Shown: positions 1,114 through 8,313 of the stretch, piece by piece | Layout: every line of letters begins with the position of its first letter | Position numbering within the stretch: position 1 is the stretch's first letter | Assembly: GCA_026706755.1 (NCBI GenBank) | Contig: JAPOYG010000256.1 | Coordinates: 1 to 39,778, forward strand | Direction: 5' to 3' | Source: Acidobacteriota bacterium | GTDB taxonomy: Bacteria > Acidobacteriota > Vicinamibacteria > Vicinamibacterales > UBA8438 | Length of the DNA stretch: 39,778 nt | Notes under the pieces: model-generated | Told to the model about the DNA's origin: nothing | Databases searched by the model: none | The model's input: the letters and a program-made list of their open reading frames with translations, nothing else | Translations under genes and position numbers: made by a program

Positions 1114-1557
1114 CTAGACGGCCTTGGCGCGGCGCCCGCGGCGATGGGCGGTGAGATCGCGGTAGCGGAGCCGCTTCCCCTCGAAACCGCGAACCATCAG
1201 GCCCATCTGCCGGATCGTGTCGAGGTCCCGCATGTTGTGCCGGCCCTCGAACTCTGCGACGTACCGGTGTAGATGCTCGATCGACATGCGGTGGAACGTG
1301 CCCGTGTAGCCGCGCTTCAGGAGCGCCCAAAAACTTTCCATGCCGTTGATGGTGGCCTGACCGCGGACGTACTCCCCGATGCCGTGGGTGACCGCTTCGT
1401 GGTGGTCGAGGCTCCGGTACGATGAAGCCTCGTCCGTGTAGATCATCGTGCCCCGTTCGACGTTCGATTCCACGAACCGGGAGAGTTTCGGTCCCTCGCC
1501 GCGCACGACCCACATCTTGACCCGTCCGGTCTTGCGATCCTTGATGCCGGCGACCAT
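1114..1557 (-). pseudogene. ISXO2/IS1595-type transposase, C-terminal remnant
   Basis: The leftward frame carries the C-terminal half of an ISXO2-like (DDE-type) transposase, from the strand that begins MVAGIKDRKTGR to the basic C-terminus. It includes YTDEASSYRSL, the INGMESFWALLKRGYTGTFH block and a conserved tail. The N-terminal zinc ribbon and the first catalytic segment are missing. At 1558-1561 the sequence passes directly into the truncated flavin-binding gene on the other strand. It is homologous to, but clearly diverged from, the remnant at 7236-8212, so the two are not a recent duplication. The corresponding A-run at 1329-1333 has five A's and stays in frame. Confidence 0.85.
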
Positions 1558-1560
1558 CGC

Positions 1561-1950
1561 CTGCTGCCGGACCGGCCTGGCAACCGTCAGGTGGACACGT
1601 TGATGAACGTGGTCGAACGACCCTACGTCGGCCTGGTGTTCTTCGTGCCCGGCCTGACCGAGACGTTGCGGGTCAACGGACGGGCCGAGATCTCGACCGA
1701 CCCGGAACACCTGGAGCCGCTGGCGATCAACGGCAAGCCGCCGATCTCGGTCCTCCAGGTGACAGTGGAGGAGGCGTTCCTGCACTGCGCCAAGGCGTTA
1801 ATCCGAGCCCGGCTCTGGGACGCGGACGCACAGGTCGACCGCTCCCGCTACCCAAGCTACGGACGGGTGCTGGCGGACCAGATCGCCGGAGCTGACGCGG
1901 CCGAGATCGACGCGGGCGAAGCGGAGAGCGCCAAGACGGAACTGTATTGA
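1561..1950 (+). pseudogene. Pyridoxamine 5'-phosphate oxidase-family flavoprotein, N-terminally truncated
   Basis: Reading in frame from 1561, the protein begins LLPDRPGNRQVDTL and continues through VGLVFFVPG, ETLRVNGRAEI, a PPISVLQVTVEEAF segment and HCAKALIRARLW. These fit the MSMEG_1061-type branch of the split-barrel FMN-binding PPOx family as I remember it. About the first third (N-terminal strand and part of the FMN site) is missing because the transposase remnant abuts it. A GTG at 1591 could start translation, but the family sequence clearly extends upstream of it, so this is a gene fragment rather than a short gene. It ends at TGA 1948-1950. Confidence 0.75.
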
Positions 1951-3178: not shown

Positions 3179-3254
3179 GGGCGGGTAGCCTCAAACGGTA
3201 GAGGCACTGGTGTGACAGCCTGGGTTGCGAGTTCGAGTCTCGTCCCGTCCACCA
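3179..3254 (+). tRNA. tRNA-like gene, perhaps tRNA-Val(GAC), with irregular anticodon arm
   Basis: GGGCGGG (3179-3185) pairs with CCCGTCC (3244-3250) in a 7-bp acceptor stem with one G-T. GCCT (3188-3191) pairs with AGGC (3202-3205) as the D stem around a GG-containing loop. GCGAG/CTCGT (3227-3231/3239-3243) frames a perfect TTCGAGT loop, and discriminator A plus encoded CCA follow (3251-3254). The anticodon arm (3207-3223) is weak: CTGGT against CCTGG gives only two Watson-Crick pairs plus wobbles and one mismatch, with loop GTGACAG, which would put GAC at the anticodon. The variable region is only 3 bases. It could be a divergent mobile-element tRNA or a decaying copy. Confidence 0.5.
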
Positions 3255-3572: not shown

Positions 3573-4171
3573 GGTGGTTCCTCCAGTTGGGTCACGGGGT
3601 CAGGGTCAGCTCGCCGGGTGCGGTGAGTCATCGTCGTAGACCTCCTTCGAGAAGCTGCTTCGCGAGTTTCGAGGCCGGCTTTCATGGGGCCGGCTGGTGT
3701 GGTCGTGCGGGCGCCCCGGATGGGCGTCCGGGGCGTCCGCGTTTCAGCGGTTGCGACCGCTGCACCATGGTACGTGAACCGGGGTGGCGGTCAAGCGCCG
3801 CAACCGCGGGTTGCCGGCGCCCAGTCAAGCGCCGTAACTCGTTGATTCTATGGGTATTATTCCGTCTAATTCCCATAACTATGCAGCCGCGCGCATAAGC
3901 ATACGGCGCCGGCGCTCGGGGATCAACTGGCTCCACCCCCGTGCCGACCCGTGCCCGCCAGCCTGCAGCGGCTTGACGCCGGGGCCTGCGCCGTGCATAG
4001 ATATCGGGATTACATCGAGTAGTAACCAACCACAACTCCTGGGGTTCCCGTTACGTCCGGAACCCCAGATGTCGTGGAGCCTTGTGAATAGGCGGCGGAT
4101 TTCGGGTCACGATCGGCCATTCAGCGATCGCAGGTCTTGCATAGCGGTGCATACCGTTGACCTAACTGGAC
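3573..4171. other. Structured non-coding spacer
   Basis: There is no credible gene in these 599 bases. CGCCCCGGA/TCCGGGGCG (3712-3720/3727-3735) is a perfect 9-bp hairpin with loop TGGGCG. CAGCGG/CCGCTG (3745-3750/3757-3762) follows. ATGGGTATT/AATTCCCAT (3850-3858/3868-3876, one mismatch) resembles an operator. A near-repeat, GTCAAGCGCCGCAAC versus GTCAAGCGCCGTAAC, lies about 3790-3838. Confidence 0.6.
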
Positions 4172-4468
4172 TTACGGGCAGGACTGCATAACCGACCGCT
4201 GGTCTTGGATAAGCGTCCGACCGATCTTGAACCCGTGGAGGCGTCCGTGACCGTGGAGGACCTCAAGCAGCTGACGAAGCTCGCTGCGTCGAACTGGCGG
4301 TGATACGGCGGGCAGCAGGCCGGCGATGGTGCCGCTCAGCCGATACGTGAGGTGGCGGAAGAGGACCGGCCCGAGCTGAGCCTCGATGCAGGCGATCAGC
4401 CGGCGAAGTTCGTGTTGCTGGTTGTAACCTGACATAACCGGGGACGATGCGGTATAATCTGGGCGCAC
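4172..4468 (-). CDS. Hypothetical 98-residue helical protein
   Basis: A GTG start at 4468 has GGAGG four bases upstream; an internal ATG at 4435 has no such site. The protein is Leu- and Arg-rich and predicted mostly helical, with HELRRLIACIEAQLG and SELRQLLEVLHGHGRL as amphipathic segments. No membrane span or signal peptide is visible. Its first codons overlap a strong rightward promoter (-10 at 4453-4458), so the two transcripts would be antisense at their 5' ends. Family not recognised. Confidence 0.5.
   Translation of the reverse strand: MRPDYTASSPVMSGYNQQHELRRLIACIEAQLGPVLFRHLTYRLSGTIAGLLPAVSPPVRRSELRQLLEVLHGHGRLHGFKIGRTLIQDQRSVMQSCP
4429..4458 (+). promoter_or_regulatory. Strong sigma-70-type promoter with no protein gene downstream
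   Basis: CTGACA (4429-4434), an 18-base spacer and a perfect TATAAT (4453-4458) read rightward. Transcription would begin near 4465. There is no reading frame of note downstream, but two hairpins follow, so this fits the promoter of a small RNA. Confidence 0.55.
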
Positions 4469-4558
4469 GTTGCCTCCGCTGTCGGCTTGAGCTTTCTGGG
4501 GCTGGCTGCCGACGGTTCCGAGGTTGATAACGCCGCTGGTTCACCGGCCAGCGGCGTT
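4465..4558 (+). ncRNA. Candidate small RNA of about 95 nt ending in an 11-bp hairpin
   Basis: Downstream of the TATAAT promoter, GTCGGC (4481-4486) pairs with GCCGAC (4508-4513). AACGCCGCTGG (4529-4539) then pairs perfectly with CCAGCGGCGTT (4548-4558) around an 8-base loop. A T-poor but T-containing tail (TTCGCTTG) follows. The 5' end would be close to, and opposite to, the start of the gene at 4172-4468, so antisense control of that gene is possible. No known RNA family is recognised. Confidence 0.4.
4529..4558. terminator. Perfect 11-bp hairpin, possible bidirectional terminator
   Basis: AACGCCGCTGG and CCAGCGGCGTT form an uninterrupted stem with loop TTCACCGG. It lies between the leftward small genes at 4721-4888 and 4172-4468 and at the expected 3' end of the rightward candidate RNA. 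There is no T-run on either side, so termination strength is uncertain. Confidence 0.5.
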
Positions 4559-4720
4559 CGCTTGTACGTCGATCAGCGTATCACGTCAGCGGGCCAGAGG
4601 CGGTGATGTTGGCAGGCGGGTCAGGATGTCCTGTGCTGCTGGGCGAACTGGACGCGAGCGGACCGTTCGGCGTTTCGGATCGTCCGGAAGAAGGCAGCGA
4701 GCTGTAGCTGACTGCTCAGA

Positions 4721-4888
4721 TCAGGATCTCGTGATGGCCCTGCCGAACAAGTGCTCGATGAACAGTCGAGCGCCCTGGAGTAGGTGGTTAGAGTAGTCGG
4801 CTGAGTAGCCGGCACGGTTTAGGTGATTCTCGAAGGCGTTCAGCTCCTTCTTCAGATACTGCTCGATCGAGATCGGTCTGGTGGGCAT
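4721..4888 (-). CDS. Hypothetical 55-residue helical protein
   Basis: The frame from the ATG at 4888 to TGA at 4721 encodes 55 residues beginning MPTRPISIEQYLKKEL and continuing with a segment NRAGYSADYSNHLLQGAR. The helix-turn-helix rhythm resembles the SAM-like N-terminal core-binding domain of tyrosine recombinases, but no catalytic domain follows, so this could be a fragment or an independent small protein. No ribosome site is obvious. It is in line with the other leftward small genes and precedes the 4529-4558 hairpin. Confidence 0.4.
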   Translation of the reverse strand: MPTRPISIEQYLKKELNAFENHLNRAGYSADYSNHLLQGARLFIEHLFGRAITRS

Positions 4889-4946
4889 GGTGTTTGGGTG
4901 GTTCTCAGCTTCGAAAACCGTTTCGGTAGCGTGATCGGTCTTGGGC

Positions 4947-5159
4947 TTATGGCGTTCCCGACGCCCACATCTCCATGCCGATCCCGATCAGGACGCCAAG
5001 GATCGCGATCAGGAGCAGGACCGTGATGTTGCCTCGGACCTCAGATCGGGCTGCCATGACGTAAAGCTCACCGACGTCTTCGGACGCGCGTTCGGCCATG
5101 CGGGGAGCGACACCGGCTGCGGTGAGCGCCTTCAACAGCCAGGTGGGTGCGACTTTCAT
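4947..5159 (-). CDS. Small membrane protein with one C-terminal span
   Basis: GAGGAGG stands a few bases before the ATG at 5159. The 70-residue product has an amphipathic N-terminal half (TWLLKALTAAGVAPRMAER) and one hydrophobic span at about residues 46-65 (ITVLLLIAILGVLIG), followed by a short tail. It starts 13 bases after the stop of the 5173-5397 gene, so the two form an operon. The size and layout resemble small phage or plasmid membrane proteins, but no family is recognised. Confidence 0.6.
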   Translation of the reverse strand: MKVAPTWLLKALTAAGVAPRMAERASEDVGELYVMAARSEVRGNITVLLLIAILGVLIGIGMEMWASGTP

Positions 5160-5172
5160 GGCTCCTCCTCGG

Positions 5173-5397
5173 TCAGTGGACCCGGCGCCGCGGGTGATTC
5201 CCCATGAGGGCCTGGGCAAGCTCGAGCGGCGTGGCGTCCGGGATGCTGACGTCCTCCTCCAGATCGGCCCGCGTCGGCACGTAGCGCGGGTCGCTCTTGT
5301 CGAATATTTCTCGCCGCCGGCCCCGTGACCGGTACTCCGGTGAGGGTTCCCGAGCGATTGACGCTCGCGTCTGTAACTTCTTTTCGCTCTTGGACAT
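5173..5397 (-). CDS. Hypothetical 74-residue charged protein, leaderless start
   Basis: The product is hydrophilic, with a basic N-terminus (MSKSEKKLQTRASIAREP) and a conserved-looking block FDKSDPRYVPTRADLEEDV followed by IPDATPLELAQALM. Small proteins with a similar block occur in various bacterial genomes as far as I recall, without known function. The ATG at 5397 stands exactly 6 bases after a TATGAT -10 box with a CTGACG -35 at 18-base spacing, and there is no Shine-Dalgarno site, so the mRNA should be leaderless. It is first in an operon with the membrane protein at 4947-5159. Confidence 0.6.
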   Translation of the reverse strand: MSKSEKKLQTRASIAREPSPEYRSRGRRREIFDKSDPRYVPTRADLEEDVSIPDATPLELAQALMGNHPRRRVH

Positions 5398-5403
5398 ACG
5401 GGA

Positions 5404-5433
5404 ATCATATCAGCTCTGCGCGACCCTCGTCAG
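5404..5433 (-). promoter_or_regulatory. Sigma-70 promoter of the 5397 gene (leaderless)
   Basis: On the minus strand CTGACG (5433-5428), an 18-base spacer and TATGAT (5409-5404) precede TCCCGT and then the ATG at 5397. The predicted transcription start coincides with the A of the ATG. Confidence 0.6.
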
Positions 5434-5516
5434 CCGCGGTTTTCGGGCCGGATCAATTTTTCTAATCTGTCACCAACCGCTTGCACTGTCAAGCGTTCGG
5501 CGGCAGAATAGCCGAG

Positions 5517-5625
5517 CCAGACAAGATGCGCGTGGCCCGACACCGGGCCGCCCGCTGACTACAACACCCGGTGCTAGCCGGGGAACAGGCGGGAGTCCGC
5601 ACCGTCACACGTGCGTCTTGTCTGG
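5517..5625. other. 109-nt structured element closed by an 18-bp stem
   Basis: Positions 5517-5534 pair with 5608-5625 over 18 consecutive positions, 16 Watson-Crick and two G-T, starting CCAGACAAGA and ending TCTTGTCTGG. Inside, CACCGGG (5541-5547) pairs with CCCGGTG (5567-5573). A separate hairpin, CGCTTG/CAAGCG, lies at 5478-5495. The element ends 50 bases before the lipoprotein start at 5675. It may be a 5' leader structure, an independent RNA, or a miniature element with inverted ends; no target-site duplication is evident. The wobble pairs favour an RNA role on the plus strand. Confidence 0.5.
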
Positions 5626-5674
5626 TAACCGACCCGGTGACCATTTTGGTCGCCCGGTATCCAGGGAGCCTGCC

Positions 5675-6052
5675 ATGGCGCACCGTCAATTCCTGTCAGT
5701 CGCCGTGATTCTTCTGGGCGTCGCCGCGGCCCTGTCCGCTGGCTGCGGCGCGTCGCGAGCACTCGGCCTGCCGGAGTGGGGCGAGTCCGACCGGCTCTGC
5801 GAGGCGTCGCATCTCGTCCAGGCCGGCATGACGGTCGCCGAGGCCGGGCAGGTCGCGGATGGCATCCTCGACAACATCGGATGGGAGGATGCCCTCGTGA
5901 GCCGGACCGAGGCCGGCAGCACCTACCAGTTCAAGGTCGACGACACCGTCGGCCTGCCCGACGGGCCTGACCGACGGCCGATGGCGCTGATGACAATCCG
6001 CGTCAGCGACGGGACGATCACCGACGTCCGGGCTAGCAACATGTGCGGCTGA
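5675..6052 (+). CDS. Small lipoprotein
   Basis: The 125-residue protein begins with a positively charged stretch, a hydrophobic core of about 15 residues and a lipobox LSAGC, so it should be lipidated at Cys (about residue 24) and anchored in the envelope. The mature part has a helical first half and a beta-rich second half, about 100 residues in all, ending ...ASNMCG. GGGAG lies about 8 bases before the ATG. It is followed after 8 bases by the HEAGH protein gene and probably shares its transcript. Family not recognised. Confidence 0.65.
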   Translation: MAHRQFLSVAVILLGVAAALSAGCGASRALGLPEWGESDRLCEASHLVQAGMTVAEAGQVADGILDNIGWEDALVSRTEAGSTYQFKVDDTVGLPDGPDRRPMALMTIRVSDGTITDVRASNMCG

Positions 6053-6060
6053 GGCTGGCG

Positions 6061-6786
6061 ATGACCCGCATCACAGCCGTCGCCGTTGCCAGTGTCGCAC
6101 TGGCCGTGCCGGCCGCGGCCGAGCCGCCGTTTCGAGATCTGCCGTGGATCTGGCCGGAGGTCATCGAGATCACCGACAGGTCGCGGCTGCCGGAGGTCGT
6201 GTCGGGCGGTCGTGCGCGGCGTCCGTTCGACGAAGGGTGGACGCGGCCGGACGAGTACGACGCGGTGATGGTCAACGTCTTCCTCTACCGAGCCCGCTAC
6301 CCGGGCGGGCACGAGATCGAGTTTCACGTCCATCCCGAGTACAACCGCCGTCGCGGGCGGGCTGGCGCGGACATCCCCGGATGGTGGAACCGATCGCGTG
6401 CCGCCGGCCGGTACAGCCGGCGCTACCGAGGGCCGGCGTACGACGAACGGACCCTGCGGGAGCGGATGGTCACCGAGGTCACCTATCTGGCTGACATGAT
6501 CGGCCGGCTGCCCGGCCTCATGCGTGAAGCGATCGGACTGGTCACGCTCGAGACCGGTTACGGCCACGTGTGGGCGAACCGACAGCGACGGGAGATCCGG
6601 TTCCACAGCCGGTTCAACGACAAGCTGGAGAGCTACGGTGCCGCCGAGGAGTACCTGATCCACGAGGCCGGCCACCTGCTCGAGGAGGAGTACGCGGTCA
6701 CCGACTGCTGGCGCTCCGGTCGTCGCCGAACGATGACGTGCTCGATCAGACGCCATGACGCGGTGAGGGCCATGTCGGTGACTTGA
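6061..6786 (+). CDS. Secreted HEAGH-motif protein, probable metallopeptidase-like, C-terminus possibly truncated
   Basis: The 241-residue product has a signal peptide (about residues 1-20, ending AAAEP). It then has a region shared with the broken gene at 2443 (VNVFLYRARY, IEFHVHPEY), a helical IGRLPGLMREAIG segment and EYLIHEAGHLLEEEY. HEAGH fits the HExxH zinc signature, with His, Glu and His as candidate ligands and base. In the family as I remember it, another 50-80 residues with a further acidic ligand follow; here the protein ends about 35 residues later in a basic, low-complexity tail. GAGG lies 6 bases before the ATG at 6061, which is preferred over 6043. Confidence 0.6.
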   Translation: MTRITAVAVASVALAVPAAAEPPFRDLPWIWPEVIEITDRSRLPEVVSGGRARRPFDEGWTRPDEYDAVMVNVFLYRARYPGGHEIEFHVHPEYNRRRGRAGADIPGWWNRSRAAGRYSRRYRGPAYDERTLRERMVTEVTYLADMIGRLPGLMREAIGLVTLETGYGHVWANRQRREIRFHSRFNDKLESYGAAEEYLIHEAGHLLEEEYAVTDCWRSGRRRTMTCSIRRHDAVRAMSVT

Positions 6787-6811
6787 CAGCGCTTTCGGTT
6801 CCTGATAAGCA
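6783..6811 (+). promoter_or_regulatory. Probable promoter of the 6841 gene
   Basis: TTGACA (6783-6788) overlaps the stop of the preceding gene and is followed after 17 bases by TAAGCA (6806-6811), a moderate -10 box. The leader would be about 22 bases and contains AGGAGG. Confidence 0.45.
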
Positions 6812-6840
6812 GGGGAGTTGCGCGGAACAGGAGGAAACCA

Positions 6841-7194
6841 ATGCTGGACAAACTGTCCCGTGGGGCTCAATTTTTGGCCTCAATGTGCGTCATCGTAGCT
6901 GCTCTGGCAGCAGCTAGTGGATATGTCGGTGGTGCGCTGGAAGGGATTGTCGTACGTGTAATCGATCAAGCAGTCGGATCAGCTATCGATGACAGGGTTG
7001 AACCTCTGGCTGATCGGTTGACAGTTGTCGAAGGGGCAGTTCAGGGAGTCGATCAGATGGGTGACCTCATTGGTCAACTTTCCAAGCAAATAGAAGGCTT
7101 GAGGCTGTTCAATGAGCAAGTGAACTTGAATCTGCGTTCATTGAACGAGCGTCTTGTATCGATGGAAGAAATTCTCCGGGAAGACGACCGATAG
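6841..7194 (+). CDS. Membrane-anchored coiled-coil protein
   Basis: AGGAGG lies 7 bases before the ATG. The 117-residue protein has one N-terminal hydrophobic span (about residues 11-35, Ala/Val/Gly-rich) and a long C-terminal coiled coil (about residues 50-115) with Leu, Ile and Val at heptad positions. It would expose the coil on one side of the membrane. Its layout echoes the coiled-coil protein at 2022, though the sequences are not obviously related. Codon use is AT-richer than in the arg operon. No family recognised. Confidence 0.65.
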   Translation: MLDKLSRGAQFLASMCVIVAALAAASGYVGGALEGIVVRVIDQAVGSAIDDRVEPLADRLTVVEGAVQGVDQMGDLIGQLSKQIEGLRLFNEQVNLNLRSLNERLVSMEEILREDDR

Positions 7195-7235
7195 ACGGCG
7201 TCCTGCTGTTCTGTTGCACTGCCTGACCGTCAGAA

Positions 7236-8212
7236 CTAGGTCGCCCTGGCCCGGCGGCCGTGGCGGTGCCTCGTGAGGTCCTGCCAGCGGAGCCGCCGGC
7301 CTTCCATCCGCCGCACGATCGACCCCATCTGATCGATCGTGTCGAGCTCCCGGGCGTTGTTGCGCCCGACGAACTCGGCCAGGTAGCGGCCGACGTGCTC
7401 CGGCGACATCCGGTGGAACGTCCCGACGTACCCGCGCTTCAACAACGACCAAAACTCTCGAGCGAGTTGATGTGGACGTCGCCGCGGACGAACTCCTTGG
7501 CGCCGTGGGTGACGGTTTCGTGCAGGTGTTTCAGGTTCCGGTACATCGGCGCCTCGTCGGTGTAGAGCGGGGCGTCGTCCTGCATGTTGCGGGCCACGAA
7601 TGACCGGATCGGCTGCTCGTCAGGATGGGTGCCCTTCGAGACGACATGCGCGCGGATCTGCCCGGTTTCGCGGTCGCGGATGCCGGCGACCGTGACCTTG
7701 TTCGGCCAGCCGGCCTCAGACAGCCTCTTCCGCCGTTTCGAGCGCATGGTCTTGGCCCGGCCGCCGATGAGGGTCTCATCGGCCTCGACCGGGCCAGCGA
7801 AAGGGAGGTCGTCAGGCTCCTTCCAGGCTTCCCGGATACGGTGCGCCATATGCCAGGCCGTCCGCTGCGTGACGTTGAGATCGCGGTGGAGCCGCATGCT
7901 CGAGACGCCCTTGATCGAGGTCGCCATCTGGTAAATCGCGATCGCCCAGGTCTGGTAGTTGAGGTTCGACGCCTCCATCGGCGTGCCGGTCTTGACGCTG
8001 AAGAACTTGCGGCAGTCCCGGCAACGCATCGGCATGTGCGGATGCGTCGTGCCGGTCTGGATGCGAGTCGACCGGCAGTGCGGGCAGATGATCTCGCCGC
8101 CCCAGCGGGCCTCAACGAACCACCGTTCGGCCGCGGCGTCGTCGGGGAACAGCTCGAACAGCTCCCGGAGGCTGATACCCTTGCGGTGAGCGTGTCCGGG
8201 TCCCGATGTCAT
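7236..8212 (-). pseudogene. ISXO2/IS1595-type transposase, nearly complete, with one frameshift
   Basis: Reading leftward from the ATG at 8212, the protein has an N-terminal zinc ribbon (CPHC ... CRDC, about residues 42-68), then YQTWAIAIYQMATSIKG, a VEADETLIGG catalytic block, YTDEAPMY and HINSLESF. Here the frame breaks: the A-run at 7451-7454 has four A's where the paralogue at 1329-1333 has five, so SLESFW continues in another frame (KRGYVGTFHRM to RRARAT, stop at 7236). Restoring one base gives a full-length transposase of about 325 residues. It may be inactive, a sequencing error or, less likely, a programmed shift. Terminal inverted repeats could not be assigned. The start is leaderless. 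Confidence 0.85.
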
Positions 8213-8218
8213 ATAAGA

Positions 8219-8248
8219 AGTATAGTAACCAGGCCGGCCGGACGTCAA
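8219..8248 (-). promoter_or_regulatory. Sigma-70 promoter of the transposase (leaderless)
   Basis: On the minus strand TTGACG (8248-8243), an 18-base spacer and TATACT (8224-8219) are followed by TCTTAT and the ATG at 8212. The -10 to ATG distance of 6 bases is the same as at 5397. Confidence 0.6.
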
Positions 8249-8313
8249 GCTGGTGTGCGCGATCGCGGAGTACGGTTAGGATCCGCTGTAATCCCGATAG
8301 ATATACCGTAGAG

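Follow-up and report, generated by a model that had tools for sequence, protein, structure and literature searches.

A structured RNA upstream of cargo genes in an IS1595-family transposon, a probable 5' leader akin to sRNA-Xcc1

The transposon and its cargo

The window analysed here, a stretch of 39,778 nucleotides from an Acidobacteriota contig, contains a complete IS1595-family transposon at 4005-8296 that is flanked by 8-bp target-site duplications and encloses the RNA described below. The duplicated sequence, ATAGATAT, is the same at 3997-4004 and 8297-8304, immediately outside the terminal inverted repeats. The left repeat, CGGGATTACATCGAGTAGTAACC, occupies 4005-4027 on the plus strand and matches the right repeat (8274-8296, minus strand) at 18 of 24 positions. 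Even with two mismatches allowed, TATCGGGATTACA has only two sites in the window, an inverted pair at 4002 and 8287. A frame of 269 amino acids on the minus strand (7439-8248) encodes an IS1595-family transposase, with matches to PF12762 (2e-17) and PF12760 (5.6e-7) that are both above cut-off. Duplications of 8 bp are typical of the IS1595 family, and the unit resembles the tIS elements of that family in its PF12762 transposase, terminal inverted repeats, 8-bp duplications and passenger genes. Passenger-carrying IS1595 elements are known (PMC5704250); in the parts of the literature searched we found no mention of structured RNA leaders on IS1595 passenger genes.

The cargo lies on the plus strand. 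Gene 1 (5675-6052, 125 aa) has a lipobox-like N-terminus by eye, gene 2 (6061-6786) encodes 241 aa, and a possible gene 3 (6841-7194, 117 aa) begins with a stretch that looks hydrophobic by eye; none of the three proteins has a Pfam match. A paralogue of protein 2, 63% identical, is encoded directly after a second copy of the RNA in the same genome (contig C399 of G000). Upstream of gene 1, a promoter-like site (5481-5509, plus strand) precedes a conserved RNA that spans about 5516 to about 5658.

A covarying RNA and its distribution

The first-pass annotation had described 18 consecutive pairs, two of them G-T wobbles, around a 73-base interior, and a direct reading confirms this: in the helix that we call P1, 5517-5534 (CCAGACAAGATGCGCGTG) pairs with 5608-5625 (CACGTGCGTCTTGTCTGG) without interruption, with exactly two G-T pairs and an interior of 73 nt. 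A 19th pair, G-T, at 5516/5626 extends the two arms to 5516-5534 and 5608-5626. The annotation had set the limits of the element at 5478 and 5625; the stem does lie within them, but the RNA begins at about 5516 and continues past 5625 to about 5658, and 5478 falls in the promoter region. The plus-strand RNA has a predicted folding energy of -63.1 kcal/mol, against -42.5 +/- 3.7 in 200 shuffles (z -5.6; 0/200 as low), and the opposite strand folds less strongly (z -3.9).

Several smaller helices accompany P1. Hairpin P2 (5534-5549) is formed by 5534-5539 with 5544-5549; its six pairs are intact in six of the seven copies of the alignment described below (A2), and five remain in the seventh. P3 (5551-5555/5589-5593) and P4 (5567-5571/5578-5582) carry a conserved core, ACTACAACACCCG..GGGGAA (5551-5593), that fits the core of the Rfam family RF02221, sRNA-Xcc1. 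A long-range helix joins 5541-5550 to 5630-5639. The 17 best copies retain 9-10 of its 10 pairs and the five weaker copies listed retain 5-8, counts that are biased towards pairing because the best-scoring placement was picked. Hairpin B (5632-5658), recognised by eye and in the predicted fold, stands upstream of the ribosome-binding site; it occurs in most related copies, aligns poorly in three of the seven in A2, and has no U-run after it in the window. The 3' strand of P2 is shared with the 5' strand of the long-range helix, and hairpin B also shares a strand with that helix. Since the long-range helix crosses P1 in this family, the two together would form a pseudoknot. Summed without loop costs, the energies of the nested and pseudoknotted states lie within 2.3 kcal/mol of each other in 6 of 12 leaders and are 3.5-12 apart in the others; the window copy is one of the latter, its pseudoknotted state being 6.1 kcal/mol worse before loop costs are added.

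A BLAST search over 28 genomes of the same bacterial family returned clear copies in other genera together with short, chance-like matches. We set aside the weak matches (L003-L015, L021-L027, L032, L034 and L036) as chance hits or unrelated sequence. The clear copies conserve the interior, whereas their stems differ in sequence yet remain paired, and G-T pairs are common in P1. We aligned seven copies with MAFFT, making no use of structure, to give A2; this alignment is the basis of a covariance model, R1, from which the degenerate copy L002 was kept out. Across P1, the long-range helix, P3 and P4, 97.1% of cells in A2 are paired, and sliding the helix partners lowers pairing to 30-42%. Double-changed cells number 26 (20 in P1, 2 in the long-range helix and 4 in P4), compared with a mean of 7.9 in shuffles, of which 0/500 were as high. 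Relatives thus contain the covarying pairs that the earlier annotation proposed to look for, and its suggestion of selection on RNA structure is upheld.

Further copies, which it had likewise proposed to seek, are present. At E <=0.1, R1 finds 24 matches in 10 of the 28 genomes of the same family (f1), and the window's own genome has its second copy at G000:C399:4707-4855. The weakest f1 matches (L051, L057, L060, L061, L063 and L065) look partial or degenerate. Two of them, L061 (G027:C3) and L063 (G027:C21), are half elements: a 5' half without a 3' partner, and a 3' hairpin and start codon with no recognisable core. The searches of the order and the phylum were run under stricter filters than the family search. 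At E <=0.01, matches occur in 9 of the 162 genomes from the order, every one in the same family; among 396 genomes sampled from the phylum, 10 match, comprising two of the same family, seven of a second family (f56) and one weak, partial case. Family f56 has 15 copies of the RNA in seven genomes.

The promoter-like site, TTGCAC-17-CAGAAT, agrees with the consensus at 7 of 12 positions and ends 6 nt before P1. We scanned 36 of 39 copies (all except L051, L063 and L065), requiring the -10 element to end 4-10 nt before P1. The best sigma70-like site per copy averages 6.5/12 consensus matches versus 4.8 at controls scored alike, sites with at least eight matches occur in 11/36 copies versus 0.56% of control positions, and 17/36 have a -10 element whose end is exactly 6 nt before P1. 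Transcription would probably start at the base of P1, at about the 5' end of its first arm, and the mRNA would open with a helix of 18-19 bp. The start codon of gene 1 lies 89 nt after GGGGAA, and this distance is 81-95 nt in 10 of 11 measurable copies (13 taken). An ORF begins 13-24 nt past the end of the R1 match in 12 of the 24 family copies; several others have no start codon there or a distant one. Proteins after those start codons mostly show, by eye, a signal peptide, lipobox or membrane segment at the N-terminus, and the cargo probably consists of exported proteins. Searched against Pfam, the first cargo proteins of seven copies gave as their sole match a weak M10 peptidase below cut-off. 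We rejected a tie between the leader and one cargo family: by eye these first proteins are mutually unlike, and the tie is also weakened by distant relatives of cargo protein 2 in G007 and G009, genomes without an R1 match.

Because a search with one terminal-repeat motif failed at most loci, we scanned 33 of 35 copies (omitting two further copies at L210) for any inverted repeat with an exact 8-bp duplication, and ran the same scan on chimeric controls. Repeats matching at 18/24 positions or more with an exact duplication enclose seven of the 33 copies, the window and six others, against 2/1000 controls. L209 and L218 reach 17/24, a score of at least 17 being found in 16/1000 controls; scores of 15-16 were left uncounted since they are frequent in the control (183/1000). 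L213, L215, L247 and L254, and L255 by eye, have the same arrangement as the window, each with an IS1595 transposase and a duplication of its own. L216 (the second copy of the window's genome) and L210 have repeats of another kind and an IS1-type transposase in or beside the unit, and the L210 unit has transposases of both types. The IS1-type transposase at L216 is just under the Pfam cut-off and that of the related L217 above it; the repeat pair at L217 (16/24) is weaker and inside the control range. In the six units of other copies with the highest scores for their own left end, the distance from the RNA to that end runs from 80 to 2,568 nt (L213, L215, L216, L247 and L254) and is 3,166 nt in L210. 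This last locus (G025:C278:82000-99000) packs three copies of the RNA, an IS1595 transposase and two of IS1 type into about 7 kb, and all three copies lie between the arms of a 21/24 repeat pair that has an 8-bp duplication.

A survey of PF12762 covered nine of the ten family genomes in which R1 matches (all but G010, whose single match is weak) and found nine sites, seven of them within about 2 kb of an RNA copy; this does not hold for the other two, a fragment (G004:C62) and a decayed gene (window 1234-1575). In f56, 5 of 13 transposase sites are within 5 kb of a copy and 8 are not. By raw counts, 11/18 f1 and 5/15 f56 loci have a transposase of IS1595 or IS1 type close to the RNA, and neither type is nearby at the remaining 7/18 and 10/15.

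Probable kinship with sRNA-Xcc1 and pairing at the ribosome-binding site

In an Rfam scan of the window, no family reached its gathering score; no riboswitch family did so either there or at the motif in the 18 loci scanned. Once the threshold was relaxed, RF02221 matched at full length, in the right place and on the right strand, at three of ten loci (L020, 31.9 bits; L019, 27.7; L031, 25.3), and gave 22.9 bits (E 0.06) in the window when 221 nt were searched. Model positions 1-87 are aligned in all four. These scores, the best being that of L020, fall below the gathering score of 53 bits, and at six of the nine loci other than the window RF02221 did not reach E 5. Run alone over 31 genomes at E <=1, the model gave four matches, two of which are R1 copies; L039 and L041 were rejected as they are without the core. 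The outer helix of RF02221 is the 5541-5550/5630-5639 pairing, which had first been found by eye.

The two RNAs are alike in the core AAUACAA-ACCCG..GGGGAA in P3/P4, in the outer helix and in lying about 90 nt before a start codon, and both are found on mobile elements, which for sRNA-Xcc1 include Xanthomonas integron cassettes (PMC12444791). Unlike sRNA-Xcc1, the window family has an extra P1 of 18-19 bp and hairpins P2 and B, and its cargo is probably exported proteins where that of sRNA-Xcc1 is phage regulators or SymE. The window RNA looks like a distant cousin of sRNA-Xcc1, a new and more elaborate variant beside it.

Proteobacterial sRNA-Xcc1 loci offer a view of what the shared parts may do. 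A search of genome contigs with the core pattern gave at least 118 stretches (L066-L183); among the matches listed, RF02221 is above gathering in 15 of 18 loci tested, with 16 matches. We chose 52 Xcc1-type loci by outer helix and loop size, and 38 of them have a start codon with a Shine-Dalgarno sequence 75-110 nt after GGGGAA, compared with 0-9 for five other such intervals (among the matches listed). We retained 49 of 63 downstream ORFs as set A3, omitting 14 for doubtful starts, weak structures or duplication. Their families, among the matches listed, are Bro-N (13), Rha (3), SymE (3), ORF6N (2), P22_AR_N (1), AntA (1) and a helix-turn-helix family (1); one protein may match several, and many ORFs match none. 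Individual examples of sRNA-Xcc1-type RNAs before Bro-N, Rha, ORF6N, AntA or SymE genes, seen at many loci, include L087, L070, L078 and L141. Viral contigs, too, contain the core pattern, in at least 120 stretches (L258-L337 and more), which fits prophage carriage. At L073 (Synechococcus WH7803) and L162 an outer GTCGGG/CCCGAC helix encloses the same core, and terminator-like sequence comes after it; both loci stay below RF02221 gathering.

In the Xcc1 loci a segment between P3 and the outer helix, J, is complementary to the nucleotides 24-5 before the start codon; the 3' arm of P1 (5608-5626) has its position in the window RNA. Among the matches listed, a helix of at least 7 bp between J and the ribosome-binding site (RBS) is present in 23/40 loci and in 18% of mismatched combinations, a score of 19 is reached in 12/40 loci versus 0.8%, and the mean is matched by 0/20,000 permutations. 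The paired sequences vary by locus, as in TCTGTATG/CATACAGG, CCTATCGA/TCGATAGG and TCCTACGT/ACGTAGGA, and a Rhodanobacter/Xanthomonas-type group is mostly without the helix. That J covaries with the RBS of the next gene suggests a cis translational switch at these loci. PreQ1-II and SAM-II are pseudoknot riboswitches that hide the ribosome-binding site; the Xcc1 loci are like them in pairing a pseudoknot strand with that site and, unlike them, are without a known ligand. The pattern makes sRNA-Xcc1 itself look like a cis leader, and the discrete RNA of about 88-100 nt seen in Xanthomonas could have arisen from such a leader by processing or attenuation. Within the parts of the sRNA-Xcc1 literature searched, we found no statement on pairing with the adjacent RBS.

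The covariation is weaker in the transposon set. We took 33 of 39 copies (leaving out L051, L063, L065, L057, L060 and L061, and including a few near-identical ones) and found a start in 28. The 3' arm of P1 scores a mean of 18.6 against the start region, versus 15.3 in mismatched combinations (0/2000 permutations); seven of the 28 are at or above the 95% level, four at or above 99% and none at 99.9%. The longest helices, counting G-U pairs, measure 13 bp in L234, 12 in L231, 11 in L052 and in L228/L229/L238, and 9 in L044, and extend to the start codon. In these copies the start region is similar to the 5' arm of P1, so the 3' arm could pair with either. The window copy has a helix of 4 bp at best, near the start codon. 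The signal for mutually exclusive helices that include the RBS, as expected of a riboswitch, comes from the set as a whole and is not seen in the window copy. When the long-range helix is imposed on 12 leaders, predicted RBS accessibility rises in seven and falls in five, so that the folds predict no consistent switch.

Proposed role, rival readings and other features of the window

We consider it likely that the window element is the 5' leader RNA of the transposon's cargo, acting in cis on cargo translation. The RNA and the transposon are well supported, and the leader reading is supported by position; it builds on a conserved paired RNA, promoter and start-codon geometry, the location in a transposon, an Xcc1-type core and covarying RBS pairing in the Xcc1 set. 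The account of how such a leader might switch is a model that draws more of its support from relatives than from the window copy. Against the reading as a whole count the RF02221 scores far under gathering, the discrete RNA seen in Xanthomonas, the J/RBS helix that a Rhodanobacter/Xanthomonas-type group mostly lacks, the folds that predict no consistent switch, and the f1 and f56 loci and f56 transposase sites where RNA and transposase lie apart. The core related to sRNA-Xcc1 sits inside P1, and three helices of the leader are mutually exclusive: P2, the long-range helix (equivalent to the outer helix of Xcc1) and hairpin B, which precedes the ribosome-binding site. Control of cargo-gene translation in cis would be the most likely role. 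At sRNA-Xcc1 loci the segment equivalent to the 3' arm of P1 pairs with the site where ribosomes bind ahead of the adjacent gene; in the transposon family, the 5' arm of P1 could capture that segment, leaving the site open. As RBS pairing is significant across the set and absent in the window copy, we infer both the signal and the mechanism, and the switching of the leader, the sensing and such behaviour of the window copy would all belong to the model.

Of the three options that the first-pass annotation had raised, the cis-regulatory leader is thus the best supported, through the promoter-like site just upstream and the regular distance to the start codon, the regulation itself being part of the model. 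As for the miniature mobile element, the hairpin is not the mobile unit: ends with duplications are at 4005 and 8296, not at the stem, and stem sequence varies with compensation, which led us to reject a miniature inverted-repeat element. It is instead carried, with cargo, within larger IS1595 or IS1-type transposons, and with the RNA inside a complete transposon, and six further copies in similar units, the best reading is that of a cargo 5' leader. An integron attC site, considered for the long hairpin and the Xcc1 link, was also rejected, its core-site pattern not being seen by eye; no match in G000 exceeds the TIGR02249 cut-off for an integron integrase, which is present in 2 of the 28 family genomes. 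That the element might be DNA, an internal transposase or recombination site, would suit its location inside IS1595 and IS1-type units, but the distance to the left end varies (80 to 3,166 nt across six units), the position before a start codon is kept, transposases of two types or none accompany it, and G-T pairs are common in P1; we regard this reading as very improbable.

A trans-acting small RNA that merely happens to lie upstream of a gene, the annotation's third option, gains no support at this locus and is unlikely in our estimate, even though the nearest known family carries that label. In published work, sRNA-Xcc1 is discrete in Xanthomonas (in X. campestris a Northern blot shows a single band of about 100 nt, and RACE places the ends 88 nt from each other; PMC2996969) and is found upstream of symE in Xanthomonas cassettes (PMC12444791), its homologues have been detected as small RNAs in Xylella (PMC12189769), and the family is called trans-acting in print (PMC6557892). 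Against this stand the start codons with Shine-Dalgarno sequences at 75-110 nt in 38 of the 52 Xcc1-type loci, among the matches listed, the covariation of J with the adjacent RBS, not a fixed target, and hairpin B in the window, without a U-run. An equally unlikely reading is a passive stabiliser, in which the 5' helix protects the cargo mRNA and provides a context-independent start while sensing nothing. It would account for P1 at the presumed transcript start with a sequence free to change, and for folds without a consistent RBS switch, but offers no explanation for the conserved core loop, for the long-range helix in common with Xcc1 or for the start-region pairing.

More broadly, we suggest tentatively, at slightly less than even chances, that sRNA-Xcc1 and the window RNA form one superfamily of portable cis leaders on prophages, integron cassettes and IS1595/IS1 transposons, gating translation of the carried gene by an RBS pseudoknot around an AUACAA/GGGGAA pocket that all have in common and that might respond to a single signal. 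Were this so, the trans-acting label of sRNA-Xcc1 would be wrong or incomplete, very different mobile elements would carry related regulatory RNA for their cargo, and the signal of the shared core would become a testable question. sRNA-Xcc1 would also be read differently: the sequences here point to the adjacent gene, not to the bacterial and plant targets predicted in trans for its homologues in 2025 (PMC12189769).

Outside the transposon, the window has an odd tRNA-like sequence with no assignable anticodon at 3179-3254 (ARAGORN), and an ORF at 2022-2441 in which four overlapping 42-nt matches with 21-nt spacing (2268-2372) encode the repeated peptide IDQRFVG. Two direct copies of CGCGGGGATGATACCCGATC, at 71-95 and 505-530, resemble the IS1595 terminal repeat; together with a decayed IS1595 transposase at 1114-1785 they are probably the remains of another unit.
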